From the NCBI GenBank assembly GCA_946886125.1, contig CAMPHY010000024.1:1-10247 (forward strand): 10,247 bases of DNA, read 5' to 3'. Within the stretch, counting starts at the first letter, position 1; every line of letters begins with the position of its first letter. This stretch comes from an uncultured Candidatus Saccharibacteria bacterium. Its GTDB lineage: Bacteria; Patescibacteria; Saccharimonadia; Saccharimonadales; UBA6022. Positions 3,498 to 10,247 of the stretch are shown here, one piece after another. The notes beneath the pieces were generated by a model. That model ran no database searches. It was not told where the DNA came from and worked only from the letters and a program-made list of their open reading frames with translations. The position numbers and the translations under genes were made by a program.

Positions 3498-4037
3498 ATG
3501 TCTAAAAAGAACAAACAAACAGAACAACAATTAGATTTTGACGGACAGCGAGACGGGGAAGAACTTCTCTTCGTATTTCGACGTCACATCATAGCAATGC
3601 GAAAAGGCTTTTATTTCCTGCTGATTCCTTTTGTGCTTTCCGCTATTCCACCGTTGATTTGGCAATCGAATCTTGAATTATTCTTATTACCAATCGGAGG
3701 TCTGTTACTCGGTCTTATACTGTTTTCGTACCACTTTCTTATGTGGTACTTTACGATCTATATCGTGACTGATCAACGGATACGACAAATCACCCAGCGT
3801 GGCTTTTTTGGTAAGGACGTGATTGAGCTGCGACTATCAAAGATCCAAAACATAAGTTATAATATACCAGGGTTCACTGGTGAAATTTTTGGCTTTGGCA
3901 CTGTTGTCATTCAGACGTTCGTCGGTGATCTTGTTATTAATAAAGTAGAGCATCCTGATAAAATTTACAACAGATTACAGGACGCTGTTAGTGCCGCTAC
4001 GGCCACCCAAGGAGATTATGAAGAAACCGTCACTTAA
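3498..4037 (+). CDS. Bacterial PH-domain (YdbS/DUF304-like) membrane protein
   Basis: The 179-residue protein begins with a hydrophilic, lysine- and glutamine-rich tail (1-30), then two transmembrane helices (about 36-54 and 61-80), then a cytoplasmic bacterial pleckstrin-homology-like domain (about 84-160). The PH domain is recognisable from TIYIVTDQRIRQITQRGFF, followed by a RLSKIQNI strand and a GFGTVVIQT strand, typical of bPH2/YdbS proteins. The exact role of this family is poorly known. The gene is the first of three on the same strand: its 3' end overlaps the foldase gene by 20 bases, implying translational coupling, and it appears to be transcribed as a leaderless mRNA from TATAAT at 3486. 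Family assignment is confident; function is not. Confidence 0.85.
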   Translation: MSKKNKQTEQQLDFDGQRDGEELLFVFRRHIIAMRKGFYFLLIPFVLSAIPPLIWQSNLELFLLPIGGLLLGLILFSYHFLMWYFTIYIVTDQRIRQITQRGFFGKDVIELRLSKIQNISYNIPGFTGEIFGFGTVVIQTFVGDLVINKVEHPDKIYNRLQDAVSAATATQGDYEETVT

Positions 4038-5091
4038 ATGGCGTAAAGGTAAAAAAGCTCAGCAGACACCACTGTCGCGCATTACTAATGAGACAGTTGC
4101 TGAGCACCGCGAGCGTATCCTCGCTGGAGGTCGTCGCTTTAAATACCCAATGCAATATGCTCGACATAAATTAGTGTTCAACACTATAATTATTAGTCTT
4201 GTCGCTCTGCTGCTTATTATTGGTATCGGATGGCAGCAGCTGTACGTTGCACAAAATACCGGTACATTCTTTTATCGAGTAACAAAAGTCCTACCGTTAC
4301 CGGTTGCCTCAATTGATGGCCAGCCGGTTCGTTATAGTGACTACTTGATGAACTACCGTAGTTCTGTCCATTATCTACAGCAAAAGGAGCAAGTGAATTT
4401 ACGTGACGAGCAGGGCCAGAAACAGATTGAATATATCAAGAATCAGGCCCTAAGTGACGCGGTAGCCGATGCTTACGCAGTAAAACTTGCCAACGAGCGT
4501 GATATTTCTATTAGCGACGAACAAATCGATGCCTTTATTGATCAGCAGCGACGCTCACGTGACGGTACTGTCTCCGAAGAGACATATGATGCGGTCATTC
4601 TAGATTATTATGGCTGGACGCCTGAAGAGTACCGCGAAGCAATGAGTAATAAGCTTTTGCGACAAGAGGTGGCGTATCATATTGACGAGACGGCCCAGTC
4701 TAAACGTGATGCAATCGCTACGGCACTTGAAGATAATCCAGATGCTAATTTTGAAGATCTTGCCGCTAAACAAGGCGGTGAAGGTGTTGAGCAGGTAACA
4801 GCTGGCACCTCCGGTATGGTACCTATTAATAATCAAGACGGTGGTCTAGCTGAGGCGGCTTCTCAGCTTGAAGTCGGGGAGACTTCTGGTGCAATTAAAA
4901 CGACTGCGGGTGATGGCTACTATTTCGTGAAATTACTCGAAACGACAGATACTCAGTTAAGTTACGCTTATATTAAGGTTCCGCTTAGTGAATTCGCTAA
5001 GCGTTTGCAGGCAGCGAAAGATCAGGACAAACTTAATCCGTACATCTCTATCCCGCAATTGAATGCTCAACGTGCACCAGAACAAGACTAA
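4018..5091 (+). CDS. Membrane-anchored SurA/PrsA-like foldase (parvulin-type peptidyl-prolyl isomerase)
   Basis: From the ATG at 4018 the protein has 357 residues: a basic cytoplasmic tail (1-50), one transmembrane helix (about 51-72), a SurA-N/trigger-factor-like helical region (about 97-225, with VASIDGQPVRYSDYL and DEQIDAFIDQQ) and a parvulin-like domain (about 230-307, ending in the strand GYYFVKLLE). Such proteins fold or chaperone exported proteins on the outer face of the membrane; PrsA does this in Gram-positive bacteria. Prolyl isomerase activity is uncertain because canonical catalytic positions are not obvious. I chose 4018 over a GTG nine codons upstream because AAGGAG at 4009-4014 fits the ATG. 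It overlaps the PH-protein gene by 20 bases and sits 18 bases before the superoxide dismutase gene, so all three are probably one operon. Confidence 0.85.
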   Translation: MKKPSLKWRKGKKAQQTPLSRITNETVAEHRERILAGGRRFKYPMQYARHKLVFNTIIISLVALLLIIGIGWQQLYVAQNTGTFFYRVTKVLPLPVASIDGQPVRYSDYLMNYRSSVHYLQQKEQVNLRDEQGQKQIEYIKNQALSDAVADAYAVKLANERDISISDEQIDAFIDQQRRSRDGTVSEETYDAVILDYYGWTPEEYREAMSNKLLRQEVAYHIDETAQSKRDAIATALEDNPDANFEDLAAKQGGEGVEQVTAGTSGMVPINNQDGGLAEAASQLEVGETSGAIKTTAGDGYYFVKLLETTDTQLSYAYIKVPLSEFAKRLQAAKDQDKLNPYISIPQLNAQRAPEQD

Positions 5092-5986: not shown

Positions 5987-6062
5987 GCCGCTGTAGCTCA
6001 GTTGGTAGAGCGGCGCTTTCGTAAAGCGTAGGTCTCCGGTTCAAATCCGGACAGCGGCTCCA
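5987..6062 (+). tRNA. tRNA-Thr (anticodon CGU)
   Basis: A 76-base cloverleaf with encoded CCA: acceptor GCCGCTG/CAGCGGC, D stem GCTC/GAGC, anticodon stem GCGCT/AGCGT around TTCGTAA with CGT at 6020-6022, and T stem TCCGG/CCGGA around TTCAAAT. It reads ACG. The discriminator base is T (6059), giving the 3' end UCCA, which is exactly complementary to the UGGA of the T-box leader upstream of thrS in this window. Confidence 0.97.
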
Positions 6063-6110
6063 TGACGTCCTGTATGTCGTATGATCGCCCTGTTACACAA
6101 AGTATATATT

Positions 6111-6488
6111 ATGAAATTATTTAGTTTTGAAACATTTAAGTTAATCGCCACTGACCGGTATGTGATCACATTACTTGGAGTATTCTTACTTGTAACAATT
6201 GGCTTTTGCATATCAATAGGTGTAACCCTTCAACCGAGTGAGCTACAAATCGTTAATCAGTATACTGCGTATGGCATTACAAATTTTTATCGTGATAAAT
6301 GGTTTTACTTCTTGTCGTATATTGTTTTTGGCTTCATGATGGCTGTTGTTCATACAATTATTGCTGCAAAGTTGTATCAAGAGAAAGATCGTCAGTTTGC
6401 GCTAATGTTTATCTGGCTGAGTATTGCAATCGTGGCTATAGCTTTGATATTGGTTCACTCAGTTCTGCAGGTGGCATCGTTGTCATAA
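6111..6488 (+). CDS. Small three-helix membrane protein of unknown function
   Basis: From the ATG at 6111 this is a 125-residue protein with three predicted transmembrane helices (about residues 17-40, 64-88 and 96-118) and little soluble sequence between them. The layout, including a FYRDKWFYFLSY segment before helix two, is like small uncharacterised membrane proteins I associate with Patescibacteria, but I cannot name a family. An in-frame ATG at 6081 would add ten residues; I prefer 6111 because the shorter form puts the first helix at a normal distance from the N-terminus, though neither start has a clear ribosome binding site. It begins 48 bases after tRNA-Thr with no terminator between. 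Its stop codon and the glycosyltransferase ATG are separated by one base, so the two proteins are probably translationally coupled and may act together. Confidence 0.75.
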   Translation: MKLFSFETFKLIATDRYVITLLGVFLLVTIGFCISIGVTLQPSELQIVNQYTAYGITNFYRDKWFYFLSYIVFGFMMAVVHTIIAAKLYQEKDRQFALMFIWLSIAIVAIALILVHSVLQVASLS

Positions 6489-6489
6489 T

Positions 6490-8169
6490 ATGATTGATCT
6501 TGAAATTCCTCTTGGTAAGCGGACGCCTGGCTATCGATTCTTTGAAATATTGCCGGCTGTCCTTAGCTATGGCGCGCTCATTCTACTTATTGTTTTGTCT
6601 CTGATCAATCCGTTATGGGCAGCTATTTATTTAATGCTTATTATCACCACCGTACTTGTAAAGGCTGTTGGCATTGCGGTGCATACCATTTCTGGCCGTC
6701 GTCGCTTGCACGGCGCCCAGGCAGTTGATTGGCATGCTCGTTTGCAAACCCTAGAGAACCCACAGGTTTCTTATGCGAGCGCAATTAATGGTGGCGACAG
6801 CGAACAGTTTGGTGAGGCGGCGCACCTAGAAAATCTACGATTAATAGCTGCAGCAGAAGAAGGTGATTTTCCTAAGCCTTCGGAATTATACAATGCGGTG
6901 ATTATTGCCGCCTACAATGAGTCGATTGAGGTGCTAGAGCCAACAATACAATCAGTTGCACACACTCATTACGACAATGAAAATCTGATTATCGTGTTGG
7001 CGTACGAAGAACGCGGCGGTGCTGGTATGAAGAAGACGGCCGAAAAGCTTCAGCGGCAGTTTAAAGGTACTTTTAAGGCTTTTCATATCGTAGAGCATCC
7101 TAAAAATCTCCCTCATGAAGTGGTCGGCAAGGGTGGGAACATCACCTATGCAGGTAAATGGCTAAAAAGTTGGCTTGAAGAAGAGAGTATTGCCTTTAAA
7201 GATGTGATTGTTACCACTCTCGACAGTGATAACCGTCCACACGAAACGTATTTTGATTATGTCACCTATGAATATATTGTGCATGAAGACCGTAAGCATT
7301 TGTCATACCAGCCTGTTTCATTGTTCCTCAATAATATTTGGGATGCACCGGCGCCAATGCGTGTCGTCGCGACAGGTAACTCGTTTTGGAATATTATTAG
7401 CTCTATGCGACCGCATACGCTGCGCAACTTTGCTTCGCATTCACAGCCAATGGATGCACTTGTAGAAATGAATTTCTGGAGTACTCGTACAATCGTTGAA
7501 GACGGCCATCAATACTATCGCAGCTACTTCCACTTTGGCGGTAAGTATGCCGTCACGCCGATTTACGTACCAATCTATCAAGACGCTGTTTTGTCAGATA
7601 CGTACGCTAAAACACTCAAGGCTCAGTTTATCCAGCTTCGGCGCTGGGCATATGGCGCTTCAGATATTCCTTATGTCGCGATGCGTGTGTTGCCACGCAG
7701 TCGTAACGTGCCGTTTTGGGCTGGTTTTGCACGCCTGGTACGTTTAATTGACGGTAATATTACATTGGCTACGATTTCACTGCTAGTGGCTTTTGGTGGT
7801 TGGATTCCACTTCTTATTAACAGTGAAGCGGCACGAAGTGTGGCAGCTCACCAGCTTCCAGAGGTAATTAGTGATATGCAGCGGGTAGCAATGGTCGGAC
7901 TGATCATTACTGTTTTTCTTTCGTTTAAAATGCTCCCACCGCGTCCCGAGAGATACAAGCGTCGTCGTACTATTTGGATGGTTGCTCAGTGGGCGTTAAT
8001 GCCGGTGACGGCCATCGTTTACAGCGCTCTTTCTGCTTTATACTCTCAGACACGCTTAGCGCTTGGTAAGTATCTTGATAAATTTGATGTGACCGAAAAA
8101 GCTACGGCTGAGTCCGTGGCGCGCGCGAAACAACAGAAGGCCGACCGCGCTTCTTCTTCGTCGAAGTAA
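6490..8169 (+). CDS. Membrane-bound family 2 glycosyltransferase (processive GT2 type)
   Basis: This 559-residue protein has two N-terminal membrane helices (about 20-39 and 44-66), a cytoplasmic GT-A domain (about 130-390) and three C-terminal helices (about 424-444, 465-483, 496-518). GT2 hallmarks are visible: AVIIAAYNES at the nucleotide-sugar site (136-145), the metal-binding DSD at 245-247 in TTLDSDNRP, the VED motif at 336-338 with likely catalytic base Asp338, and the QLRRW form of QxxRW at 382-386. The QxxRW box and the flanking helices are typical of processive synthases such as cellulose or hyaluronan synthase, so it probably builds or exports a cell-surface polysaccharide; sugar and product cannot be told. 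Its last 68 bases overlap the convergent nrdR gene. The C-terminus is a charged, serine-rich tail. Confidence 0.9.
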   Translation: MIDLEIPLGKRTPGYRFFEILPAVLSYGALILLIVLSLINPLWAAIYLMLIITTVLVKAVGIAVHTISGRRRLHGAQAVDWHARLQTLENPQVSYASAINGGDSEQFGEAAHLENLRLIAAAEEGDFPKPSELYNAVIIAAYNESIEVLEPTIQSVAHTHYDNENLIIVLAYEERGGAGMKKTAEKLQRQFKGTFKAFHIVEHPKNLPHEVVGKGGNITYAGKWLKSWLEEESIAFKDVIVTTLDSDNRPHETYFDYVTYEYIVHEDRKHLSYQPVSLFLNNIWDAPAPMRVVATGNSFWNIISSMRPHTLRNFASHSQPMDALVEMNFWSTRTIVEDGHQYYRSYFHFGGKYAVTPIYVPIYQDAVLSDTYAKTLKAQFIQLRRWAYGASDIPYVAMRVLPRSRNVPFWAGFARLVRLIDGNITLATISLLVAFGGWIPLLINSEAARSVAAHQLPEVISDMQRVAMVGLIITVFLSFKMLPPRPERYKRRRTIWMVAQWALMPVTAIVYSALSALYSQTRLALGKYLDKFDVTEKATAESVARAKQQKADRASSSSK

Positions 8170-8572
8170 TTAATTGGTGCTGCGCGCCGTATTGCATAGC
8201 TGCCAGTTCGTCGTATTGCTTTAATACTTGATGAGTAGTGACCTCGATATCTTCAGGTGTAATGACTTTTAACTGCGTTGAAAGAGTATCTTCAACTGTT
8301 TGTGCAAGCCATAGTGCGTTTACTTGCGCATCTTCGGGGGCGTGATGAAATGCCTGAGCGATACTAATAATCAGCCGTCCAAGGTTAAATTGCTCGGTTT
8401 GTCCCGAGGGTAGGCTAATTGGAGTATTTTCTGCTAGAGAAGGTCGTTCGTAGGTGGTAAATATCGTTTGGCATTTTGCGCACTTGCGTCGCCGCCAAAT
8501 AGACGGCTTTTTTCTATGAGGACGTGAATTCGCTACTGTGGTACTAGAATGAAAACAATTTATACAAAACAT
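8102..8572 (-). CDS. nrdR: NrdR-like transcriptional repressor, divergent ATP-cone and AT-hook-like tail
   Basis: NrdR represses ribonucleotide reductase genes in response to nucleotide levels. This 156-residue protein has the family zinc ribbon (Cys3, Cys6, Cys31, Cys34) with the RRRKCAKC...FTTYER signature (27-43). The following region (about 52-132) aligns in position with the ATP-cone, but the usual lysine-rich VVKRDGS start is replaced by SLPSGQTEQF, so nucleotide binding may differ. The C-terminal tail carries KKKRGRP (139-145), an AT-hook-like core unusual for NrdR. The start at 8572 fits the zinc ribbon beginning at residue 3; there is no ribosome binding site, and a leaderless start is likely. 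A perfect match to the core NrdR-box consensus lies just upstream, implying autoregulation. Its 3' end is antisense to the last 68 bases of the glycosyltransferase gene. Confidence 0.82.
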   Translation of the reverse strand: MFCINCFHSSTTVANSRPHRKKPSIWRRRKCAKCQTIFTTYERPSLAENTPISLPSGQTEQFNLGRLIISIAQAFHHAPEDAQVNALWLAQTVEDTLSTQLKVITPEDIEVTTHQVLKQYDELAAMQYGAQHQLITSTKKKRGRPSVVSRAPRTQP

Positions 8573-8966: not shown

Positions 8967-9043
8967 TGGTGGACCCTGGAGGACTTGAACCTCCGACCTC
9001 GTCAACGTCAATGACGCGCTCTAGCCAACTGAGCTAAGGGTCC
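8967..9043 (-). tRNA. tRNA-Val (anticodon GAC)
   Basis: On the minus strand a 77-base cloverleaf with encoded CCA: acceptor GGACCCT/AGGGTCC, D stem GCTC/GAGC, anticodon stem CGTCA/TGACG around TTGACGT (GAC at 9007-9009), and T stem GGAGG/CCTCC around TTCAAGT. The discriminator base is A. Confidence 0.97.
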
Positions 9044-9054
9044 GTAGCTCACTT

Positions 9055-9084
9055 ATAGTACCATATCAGAGGTCAGCGTTGCAA
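9055..9084 (-). promoter_or_regulatory. Promoter of tRNA-Val, sharing its -35 with the thrS leader promoter
   Basis: On the minus strand TTGCAA (9079-9084) lies 18 bases from TACTAT (9055-9060), which has an extended TG motif (TGGTACTAT). The -10 ends 11 bases before the mature tRNA. TTGCAA is its own reverse complement and also serves as the -35 of the plus-strand promoter. Confidence 0.6.
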
Positions 9085-9107
9085 TAACAAGGCTGTGAGT
9101 ATATGAT
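9079..9107 (+). promoter_or_regulatory. Promoter of the thrS T-box transcript
   Basis: TTGCAA (9079-9084), a 17-base spacer and TATGAT (9102-9107) predict transcription start at about 9113-9114, exactly where the first helix of the T-box leader begins. The fit between predicted start and RNA structure supports both. Confidence 0.7.
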
Positions 9108-9112
9108 AAAAG

Positions 9113-9304
9113 GGAACAATGACGCGAAGTAACCGCTCGCTGAGTTCCGTGGGAGTCGTAGCGTACGATAACGTTATGTCATAAGTGTTCTACGATGCTC
9201 TATGCGCCGTAGAAAAGTCCGGTGGAACCGCCCATGTATTGGGTCCGAGACATGCGATCAATGGATTTAATGAATTTAAAGCCAGATATCGCATGTTTTT
9301 ATTT
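9113..9304 (+). promoter_or_regulatory. T-box riboswitch (threonine, ultrashort Stem I, transcriptional) controlling thrS
   Basis: Stem I: GGAAC (9113-9117) pairs with GTTCC (9144-9148); bases AAT (9118-9120) and tandem GA/GA steps (9121-9122 with 9142-9143) form a kink-turn-like GA motif; GCGA/TCGC closes the nine-base loop 9128-9136 containing ACC (9132-9134, Thr codon) followed by a purine. Stem II: TCGTAG (9156-9161) with CTACGA (9190-9195). Antiterminator: GTCCGG (9217-9222) pairs with CCGAGAC (9245-9251, one bulged A); the seven-base bulge TGGAACC (9223-9229) is the hallmark T-box; GCCC/GGGT (9230-9233, 9241-9244) closes the apical loop. A competing terminator follows. By family knowledge, uncharged tRNA-Thr would pair its anticodon with the specifier and its UCCA end with UGGA, stabilise the antiterminator and allow thrS transcription. 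The Stem I distal domain of classical T-boxes is absent. Found by eye only, but the core motif and structure are complete. Confidence 0.88.
9251..9304 (+). terminator. T-box-controlled terminator before thrS
   Basis: CATGCGAT (9251-9258) pairs with ATCGCATG (9288-9295), followed by TTTTTATTT. Inside, TGG/CCA and TTTAA/TTAAA can extend the hairpin. Its 5' arm begins at the last base of the antiterminator's 3' strand and can extend into it through A-U and G-U pairs, so the two structures compete. Confidence 0.82.
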
Positions 9305-9323
9305 AACTTAAAAAGGAGTACAA

Positions 9324-10247
9324 ATGAACGACGAACAATTACACGCAATGAGACATAGCCTTGCTCATATTACTGCTGCCGCCGTCCAGCGCCTCTGGCC
9401 GGATGCCAAGTTCGGCGTAGGACCAGTAGTGGATAATGGTTTTTATTATGATATTGATCTTGGTGAGCGGAAGATATCCGAAGTTAACTTTACTAAGATT
9501 GAAAAAGAAATGCGCGGCATTATCAATTATGGTGATGACTTTGAGCGTTTTGAAATGCCAGTCGATCAAGCAATCGAATGGGCAAAAGAAAATAATCAGC
9601 CGTATAAAGAAGAGTTGCTTAATGACCTTAAGCGTTCAGGTACAACAGTCGCAAAAGATCTTGATGTTGATGAACTTGGCCTAGTGACCGACGGTGAAGC
9701 GGCGGTTGAGAATGTGTCTTTTTATAAAAATGGTCAATTTGTTGATCTCTGTCGCGGCCCGCATGTGGCAAACACCAAAGATGTTGGTGTCTTTAAGTTG
9801 CTGCGCGTGGCTGGTGCGTATTGGCGTGGTAATGAAAAGAATCCACAAATGCAACGACTTTACGGTGTCGCTTTTGCCACTCAAGGGGAGCTCGATACTT
9901 ATCTTGAACGTTTAGAGCAAGCCAAATTACGGGACCATCGTAAACTTGGTAAAGAGCTTGATCTCTATACGGTGTCGTCATTAGTAGGCGCTGGCCTGCC
10001 GCTCTTCACGCCGCGAGGAACGGTACTGCGGGATATCATGGCGCAGTATTCAAATCAGCTTCGTCAGCGTCGAGGGTTTGGCAAAGTGTTTACACCACAT
10101 ATTACAAAAAAAGAATTATATGAAACATCGGGTCACTGGGCGAAATTTGGTGATGAACTTTTCTTGGTTACAAGCCAAGAAACGAGTGATGAATTTGCTC
10201 TTAAGCCAATGAATTGTCCGCATCATACACAAATATTTGCAAGTCGA
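9324..10247 (+). CDS. thrS: Threonyl-tRNA synthetase lacking the TGS domain (3' truncated by window)
   Basis: ThrRS charges tRNA-Thr and edits mischarged Ser-tRNA. 308 residues are visible and the frame runs off the window. The protein starts directly in the editing (N2) domain: HxxxH as His11-His15 (HSLAH), GPVVDNGFYYD (33-43) and CRGPH with Cys143 and His147, the zinc-like editing-site residues. The N-terminal TGS domain of E. coli-type ThrRS (about 60 residues) is missing; I know this short form from Patescibacteria. The class II catalytic core begins near residue 215 and shows KPMNCPHH with the zinc-ligand Cys298. The remaining catalytic motifs and the anticodon-binding domain must lie beyond the window. 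AAAGGAG (9312-9318) upstream of the ATG fixes the start, and no in-frame ATG upstream could add a TGS domain because the T-box terminator occupies that space. Confidence 0.95.
   Translation, partial: MNDEQLHAMRHSLAHITAAAVQRLWPDAKFGVGPVVDNGFYYDIDLGERKISEVNFTKIEKEMRGIINYGDDFERFEMPVDQAIEWAKENNQPYKEELLNDLKRSGTTVAKDLDVDELGLVTDGEAAVENVSFYKNGQFVDLCRGPHVANTKDVGVFKLLRVAGAYWRGNEKNPQMQRLYGVAFATQGELDTYLERLEQAKLRDHRKLGKELDLYTVSSLVGAGLPLFTPRGTVLRDIMAQYSNQLRQRRGFGKVFTPHITKKELYETSGHWAKFGDELFLVTSQETSDEFALKPMNCPHHTQIFASR

Follow-up and report, generated by a model that had tools for sequence, protein, structure and literature searches.

A T-box variant with an ultrashort Stem I and without Stem II in thrS leaders of Saccharibacteria

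Does a T-box riboswitch control the thrS gene of an uncultured Candidatus Saccharibacteria bacterium and, if so, of which kind? The window, that is, the whole stretch of 10,247 nt analysed here (contig CAMPHY010000024.1), carries a leader (9113–9304) between a tRNA-Val(GAC) gene on the opposite strand (8967–9043) and thrS, which an earlier note, made from the letters alone, had read as a T-box with an ultrashort Stem I, threonine specificity and transcriptional attenuation. The score of the thrS product is under the whole-protein cut-off of TIGR00418 because the gene is cut by the window end. Other genes of the window match, by family, a tyrosine recombinase (969–1883), a bacterial PH protein (3498–4037), a SurA-like protein (3991–5091) and an NrdR-like protein (8102–8572), and the ORFs at 3–962 and 6081–6488 had no Pfam match. 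The features that concern us, with their basis in brackets, are as follows:

5987–6062, forward strand: tRNA-Thr(CGU) gene, ending in UCCA (discriminator U), complementary to UGGA
9079–9107, forward strand: promoter-like TTGCAA-17-TATGAT, the −10 ending 5 nt before Stem I
9113–9148, forward strand: ultrashort Stem I with kink-turn, base helix 9113–9117/9144–9148 (sequence; the helices covary)
9118–9122 and 9142–9143, forward strand: Stem I kink-turn, three-base bulge AAU 9118–9120 and GA 9121–9122 / GA 9142–9143 (sequence)
9124–9127/9137–9140, forward strand: Stem I apical helix of four pairs (sequence; covariation)
9132–9134, forward strand: specifier ACC (threonine), in the nine-base apical loop 9128–9136 (sequence; parser)
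9148–9178, forward strand: probable IIA/B-like pseudoknot, CGU 9148–9150 with ACG 9165–9167 (hairpin folding and covariation)
9188–9214, forward strand: Stem III hairpin with purine flanks (folding; sequence)
9217–9251, forward strand: antiterminator, A1 9217–9222/9245–9251 and A2 9230–9234/9240–9244 (Rfam match; covariation)
9223–9229, forward strand: T-box bulge UGGAACC, its UGGA complementary to the UCCA end of tRNA-Thr
9250–9304, forward strand: terminator with U-run, arms 9250–9258/9288–9296, extendable into A1, with which it shares bases
9313–9318, forward strand: Shine-Dalgarno-like AAGGAG, outside the terminator
9324–10247, forward strand: thrS, 308 amino acids, running off the window (TIGR00418, E = 1.6e-74, 251.8 bits)

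Stem I is 36 nt long and reads GGAAC (9113–9117) AAU GA C GCGA AGUA-ACC-GC UCGC U GA GUUCC (9144–9148). The kink-turn-like Stem I with ACC in a nine-base loop, the complete antiterminator with its TGGAACC bulge (GUCCGG-UGGAACC-GCCCA...UGGGU-CCGAGAC) and the competing terminator, which the earlier note had described, were each found in the sequence at the positions listed; the terminator, ACAUGCGAU...AUCGCAUGU plus the U-run, starts with the last bases of A1. The second helix of that description also exists, not as a Stem II with an S-turn but as a hairpin (9157–9164/9171–9178) that holds the ACG in its loop and probably takes part in the IIA/B-like pseudoknot, and the list of elements was incomplete, since Stem III is also present. 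Folding of 9100–9325 beat all of 200 shuffles (200/200; z = −3.72). The proposed search with the Rfam T-box model did give a match, of RF00230 to 9110–9251 on the forward strand (E = 1.4e-6), at 41.5 bits and so short of the gathering score of 93. An off-state by pairing between GUUCC of Stem I and GGAAC of the T-box bulge, suggested by the lowest-energy fold, was rejected as unconserved, GUUCC being found in 10 of the 65 thrS leaders defined below.

Relatives were sought with ThrRS, one genome per species, and we kept 80 loci, the best 80 of 131. Among these best 80 of 131, 61 are titled Saccharibacteria, Saccharimonadia, Microsaccharimonas or TM7, and the closest ThrRS, 90% identical to that of the window, comes from a named Saccharibacteria genome, in support of a Saccharibacteria-like host. 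The stated sizes of related genomes are 0.7–1.4 Mb. Stem I together with TGGAAC[CA] was recognised by a motif script in 63 of the 81 sequences (the window and the best 80 of 131 loci). The alignment has 63 rows, the window and 62 loci; L079 was omitted, L009 was taken in and L057 was cut back by hand. Because sequences were picked by GA, G, AC in the loop, TGGAAC and the best apical pairing, the conservation of these motifs follows from the picking, which also favours the apical helix and leaves the remaining helices unaffected. The tRNA-Val(GAC) gene that adjoins the window leader has counterparts in 48 distinct tRNA-Val(GAC) sequences among the loci examined, indicating that the neighbourhood of the thrS leader is widely kept.

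Covariation of Stem I and of the antiterminator helices, the lack of which the earlier note had named as grounds for giving up its reading, is present. Over 30 pairs, 85.3% of the alignment cells are paired (71.7% when shuffled, 25–41% with slid partners), and changes on both sides occur in 26 of the 30, amounting to 283 double-change cells (87.4 when shuffled, 43–67 with slid partners). The apical helix, favoured by the picking, reaches 98.8% of cells paired and shows compensatory changes in 4/4 pairs; the base of Stem I is paired in 90.9%, A2 in 95.8%, A1 in 79.9% and the poorly aligned IIA/B hairpin in 68.5%. For the pseudoknot the figure is 95.2%, with covariation residing chiefly in one pair (UA 37, CG 13, UG 11), so that its existence in these leaders is probable rather than certain. 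The bulge core UGGAAC is kept wherever the leader is found; the final base of the bulge is A (UGGAACA, not UGGAACC) in L003, L036, L037, L068 and L069.

A covariance model, R1, built from the window and its 62 relatives, recovers the window leader and detects the same element at 64 of the best 80 of 131 thrS loci, and these 65 sequences are the thrS leaders referred to throughout. Two of the 16 loci missed, L011 and L032, have only 53 and 13 upstream bases, which leaves 14 of 78 testable loci (from the best 80 of 131) without a match. Genome-wide, R1 gave a strong match in 16 of 19 genomes and no good match in those of L010, L024 and L034. Judging from these searches, some close homologs of the window thrS are without this leader; as to the loss of the TGGAACC bulge in close homologs, also raised in the earlier note, the core thus holds up where a leader occurs, while the last base varies in five and the match is missing from those 14 loci.

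The position of the terminator bears directly on the mode of control. A rule asking for a hairpin of at least six pairs plus a U-run downstream of the bulge places a terminator after all 65 leaders, and the 5′ arm shares 2–5 nt with A1 in 64 of them; only 5 of 1300 shuffles matched in having a terminator and the A1 overlap. The exception is L057, where the rule picked another, weak hairpin. A simple terminator scan with loops of 3–8 did not report the window terminator, the loop of which is of about 29 nt. Antiterminator and terminator are mutually exclusive, as is general for T-boxes. In folds computed without tRNA and without the pseudoknot, the complete window leader prefers the terminator (−65.4 vs. 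−58.1 kcal/mol for the antiterminator), and in the pre-terminator transcript the best fold lies no more than 1.8 kcal/mol below the antiterminator. The Shine-Dalgarno-like site lies downstream of the terminator in the window and in most relatives. A terminator in 65/65 leaders, overlapping the antiterminator in 64, argues that control of thrS is very probably transcriptional, and the attenuation proposed earlier is supported to that extent by conserved terminators that share bases with A1.

The promoter that had been called well placed stands as to its position and not as to its motif: a scan of the window alone returned three promoter-like sites against 2.8 expected, no better than chance, and among relatives a −10-like hexamer lies 2–13 nt upstream of Stem I in 63 of 64 leaders (shuffles, 444/1280). 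It lies exactly 5 nt upstream in 40 of the 64, which suggests that the transcript probably starts at Stem I.

Conservation of AC in the loop is circular when taken from the motif scripts, because they required it; the specifier was hence read with a parser that requires the kink-turn and pairing and makes no demand on the loop letters. On the 65 leaders this parser returned ACC 50, ACT 7, ACG 6 and CCA 2 times, a threonine codon in 63/65; both CCA readings (L009 and L070) are misreads by one base, with ACC one base upstream. The tRNA side agrees. In G002, where 32 tRNA genes were seen (39 Rfam matches), the threonine tRNAs GGU, CGU and UGU end in UCCA, and U73 is limited to Cys, Lys and Thr tRNAs among the 32. 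G586 carries one of the 85-nt thrS leaders, and all three tRNA-Thr seen there have U73, as do the tRNA-Thr seen in G409 and, likewise, the tRNA-Thr(CGU) of the window, which is not the GGU isoacceptor expected to read ACC. G409 has a glyS leader that combines GGA with UGGA, and both tRNA-Gly seen in this genome also have U73, unlike the tRNA-Gly of G002, which has A73. As in T-boxes generally, the specifier codon matches the regulated gene and the UGGN bulge complements the NCCA end of the tRNA, and the threonine specificity put forward in the earlier note is well borne out as a prediction from codon and discriminator.

Stem III is optional. Its hairpin occurs in 18 of the 63 aligned leaders; counting L070 and L079, assigned by eye, the figure is 20 of 65, and the hairpin is absent from the other 45, where short purine runs are kept. 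Presence and absence require 15 changes on the ThrRS tree, in which many branches are weak; leaders may also be carried along with their genes. In the part of PMC7583486 available to us, Stem III, flanked by RRRxG and AA, is described as a T-box discriminator feature and called indispensable, and in PMC6197855 its shortening had no more than a minor effect. The former also names a G-U pair at the base of A2 as a steric sensor; this pair is G-U in the window, and over the 63 rows it is GU 17, GC 29, UA 16 and other 1.

The distribution of the leader was followed with covariance models whose E-values are rough. RF00230 matched in 6 of 12 related genomes, none over its cut-off, and the thrS leader was among the matches in only three of the six. 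The class to which G002 (CP011211.1, titled Saccharibacteria) belongs was covered with 294 genomes, of which R1 matches 120 at E ≤ 1e-4 and RF00230 matches 68 at E ≤ 0.001, with 0/294 over the gathering cut-off. Across the phylum, R1 matches 44 of 379 sampled genomes; the 25 of these leaders that were examined precede thrS (17), glyS (4) and aspS (1), and three have none of five reference synthetases close downstream. These 25 plus 40 lower-scoring R1 matches from the class make up 65 wider loci. Of their thrS leaders the parser could read 37, with Thr in 34, and left 17 unparsed; the glyS leaders gave Gly in 4/4, and the aspS leader (GAC) was misread by one base. In the R1-fitted alignment the specifier columns, by eye, hold AC and then C, T or G, excluding the four glyS and the one aspS leaders, R1 itself having been trained on AC at these columns. 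A terminator follows 58 of the 65 wider leaders (some weak) and overlaps A1 in 52 (shuffles, 6/650). In L246, L251, L253, L255, L256 and L257 the 3′ arm of the U-tract hairpin (e.g., GGUGG, GGCGG) seems, on inspection by eye, to have the Stem III loop (CCACC, CCGCC) and not A1 as its partner, a different switch design. Before a 196-aa protein without NCBIfam match, L206 has a strong R1 match (1501–1620) with ACU. The ThrRS of L209 and L210, of about 400–420 aa, start near the catalytic domain without the usual N-terminal part, and in L209 the TIGR00418 match begins at position 167.

A second model, R2, trained on the 65 wider loci, matches 93 of the 379 phylum genomes (training loci included), mostly before synthetase genes. 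In 48 of the 59 further R2 loci, blastp with five references drawn from these loci placed ThrRS (26), GlyRS (10), IleRS (7) or ValRS (5) downstream; one more has SerRS (TIGR00414), with AGC and UGGC by eye, and ten have none of these synthetases. The leader-derived models also detect the leaders of other synthetase genes, with codons of their own, for example glyS with GGA or GGC and serS with AGC. R2 detects more than one T-box architecture, since in some leaders that have Stem II its matches extend over the 3′ half alone. Automatic reading of the specifier at these second-round loci was poor and is not used as proof: the unanchored parser matched in 16/49, and the anchored one gave Thr in 8 of 11 parsed, Ser in 1/1 and Gly in 2/7, five more of the Gly loci reading TGG with GGC one base further, and left 18 of 37 unparsed. 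L362 has two tandem R2 matches on the minus strand (1293–1406 and 1443–1556). The shortest leaders, L211 and L218, span 85 nt from Stem I to A1: a Stem I whose loop has seven bases and holds ACC is joined to the antiterminator by about 20 nt of linker, and terminators follow.

With the anatomy, covariation, matching codon and discriminator and overlapping terminator observed in these leaders, we regard it as highly likely that the window leader senses tRNA-Thr as a T-box and attenuates thrS transcription. As the RNA emerges, Stem I would fold, its kink-turned hairpin presenting ACC to the GGU anticodon of tRNA-Thr. If this tRNA is uncharged, its UCCA end is predicted to pair with the UGGA of the bulge and hold A1/A2, so that the polymerase would read into thrS; if it is charged, the antiterminator would be left unheld and its 3′ strand would join the terminator, stopping transcription before the ribosome-binding site. 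The predicted role of the pseudoknot is probably to set the distance and angle between the codon hairpin and the bulge, the elbow clamp and the Stem II S-turn being missing.

Other readings start from the same observations. Since most descriptions of a short Stem I concern translational T-boxes (PMC7583486 and PMC10482949, in the parts available to us), the leader could act on translation as in actinobacterial ileS, with the U-rich hairpin incidental; that hairpin shares A1 bases in 64/65 leaders and the Shine-Dalgarno-like site lies downstream of it in the window and most relatives, and we consider this improbable. It is less probable again that the leader is an ordinary class III T-box with a Stem II that went unrecognised. 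The ileS-type leaders of Saccharibacteria do have a Stem II with an S-turn, L390 among the wider thrS leaders appears by eye to have one, which counts against a general rule, and a still looser S-turn pattern occurs in 7 of 43 wider thrS leaders, partly by chance. In the 65 leaders, Stem I and the IIA/B hairpin are only 7–12 nt apart; the S-turn pattern is found in 0/65, against 32 of 37 loci of RF00230 type from the same bacterial class (by eye mostly ileS leaders with AUC), and its still looser form in 1/65. A stricter pattern proved insensitive (0/65 leaders and only 10/37 of these controls), and the looser one was used instead.

Repeated loss of parts, seen in the 15 changes of Stem III, and the 14 of 78 testable loci (from the best 80 of 131) without a match would suit a decayed T-box that no longer senses tRNA, whereas compensatory changes in all helices and the conservation of bulge, codon and terminator speak against it, and we give decay a very small probability. 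In the E. coli thrS operator, ThrRS binds a tRNA-like hairpin and represses its own mRNA, and here too a hairpin with a threonine triplet lies immediately upstream of thrS; its loop carries the codon and not the anticodon, and the antiterminator, the bulge and the same design at glyS and serS would stay unexplained, so that repression by ThrRS is the least probable reading, at the very bottom of the scale.

We return to the T-box acting on transcription, and on balance we lean towards its being a fifth T-box class in Patescibacteria, transcriptional, in which a kink-turned codon hairpin and a bulged antiterminator would suffice, with no elbow clamp or Stem II and with pseudoknot and Stem III optional. 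If so, the 85-nt L211 and L218 would be near the smallest workable T-box, with clamp, S-turn and Stem III as accessories, and T-box control would extend to a large radiation of host-dependent bacteria. Close relatives with or without Stem III and leaders without the pseudoknot would offer a natural deletion series for the question of the minimal T-box, and the leader would be a native tRNA-controlled element in organisms in which riboswitches have been named as promising tools (PMC11665869, in the part available). The earlier note had supposed little or no previous description: in the open-access literature, absence from which is weak evidence, we found none of a T-box in Saccharibacteria, Patescibacteria, the candidate phyla radiation, TM7 or Parcubacteria, nor any T-box in passages from riboswitch papers on Saccharibacteria. 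A 2008 census lists Firmicutes, Actinobacteria, Chloroflexi, Deinococcus/Thermus and Proteobacteria (PMC2494555), and TBDB covers 3,632 species according to PMC7778990.

Within the same bacteria, the closest comparison is with ultrashort-Stem-I T-boxes of ileS type, all under the Rfam cut-off, that read AUC and have Stem II and a hairpin with a U-run (L081, L108, L109, L174, L175, L177 and others). Those of L081, L108, L174 and L175 share with the thrS leaders the short Stem I, the apical codon loop, the UGGNACC bulge and, by eye, the U-run after the hairpin; they differ in the codon, AUC, and in a Stem II with the S-turn pattern, as in the 32 of 37 loci above. Isoleucine-type T-boxes (AUC) also precede non-synthetase genes, in L083 and L084 (GNAT-like proteins) and in L106, where the downstream gene presumably encodes a Tag-like 3-methyladenine glycosylase. 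The Ile-type leaders L106, L107 and L108 have a UGGA bulge, and tRNA-Ile(GAU) in G002, the genome of L106, ends in ACCA, an apparent discriminator mismatch. RF00230 aligns with the thrS leader at the antiterminator, the UGGNACC bulge and the IIA/B region.

Four T-box classes are described in the parts of PMC7583486 and PMC10482949 on which this comparison draws. In classes I and II, which act on transcription, Stem I is long and its end binds the elbow (both sources). Class II, exemplified by B. subtilis glyQS (PMC10482949), resembles the thrS leaders in being transcriptional and lacking Stem II, the likeness of a mere linker being limited to the 85-nt leaders, and differs in that the Stem I of thrS leaders is short, without an elbow-binding end, and their specificity is for threonine, not glycine. 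Class IV has an intermediate Stem I with the specifier in a side bulge (PMC10482949), not in the apical loop as here. Class III, represented by ileS of Nocardia farcinica and M. tuberculosis, has a short Stem I, a codon in a five- or six-base loop and a required Stem II with S-turn (PMC10482949), and acts mostly on translation (both sources). It is like the thrS leaders in the short Stem I without elbow-binding end, the codon in the apical loop, the kink-turn and the pseudoknot; the thrS leaders differ from it in lacking Stem II, in an optional Stem III, in a loop of nine bases with the pairing used here (seven in L211 and L218) and in using a terminator, not Shine-Dalgarno control. The ultrashort-Stem-I T-box before thrS seen by the earlier note is upheld by the Rfam match and by helix covariation, with the absence of Stem II, the optional Stem III and the wide occurrence of the element, also before other synthetase genes, all unnoticed then, added to it: the thrS leaders are T-boxes by their defining working parts, fit none of classes I–IV as described in these sources, and are a new architectural variant of the T-box, widespread in one bacterial radiation.
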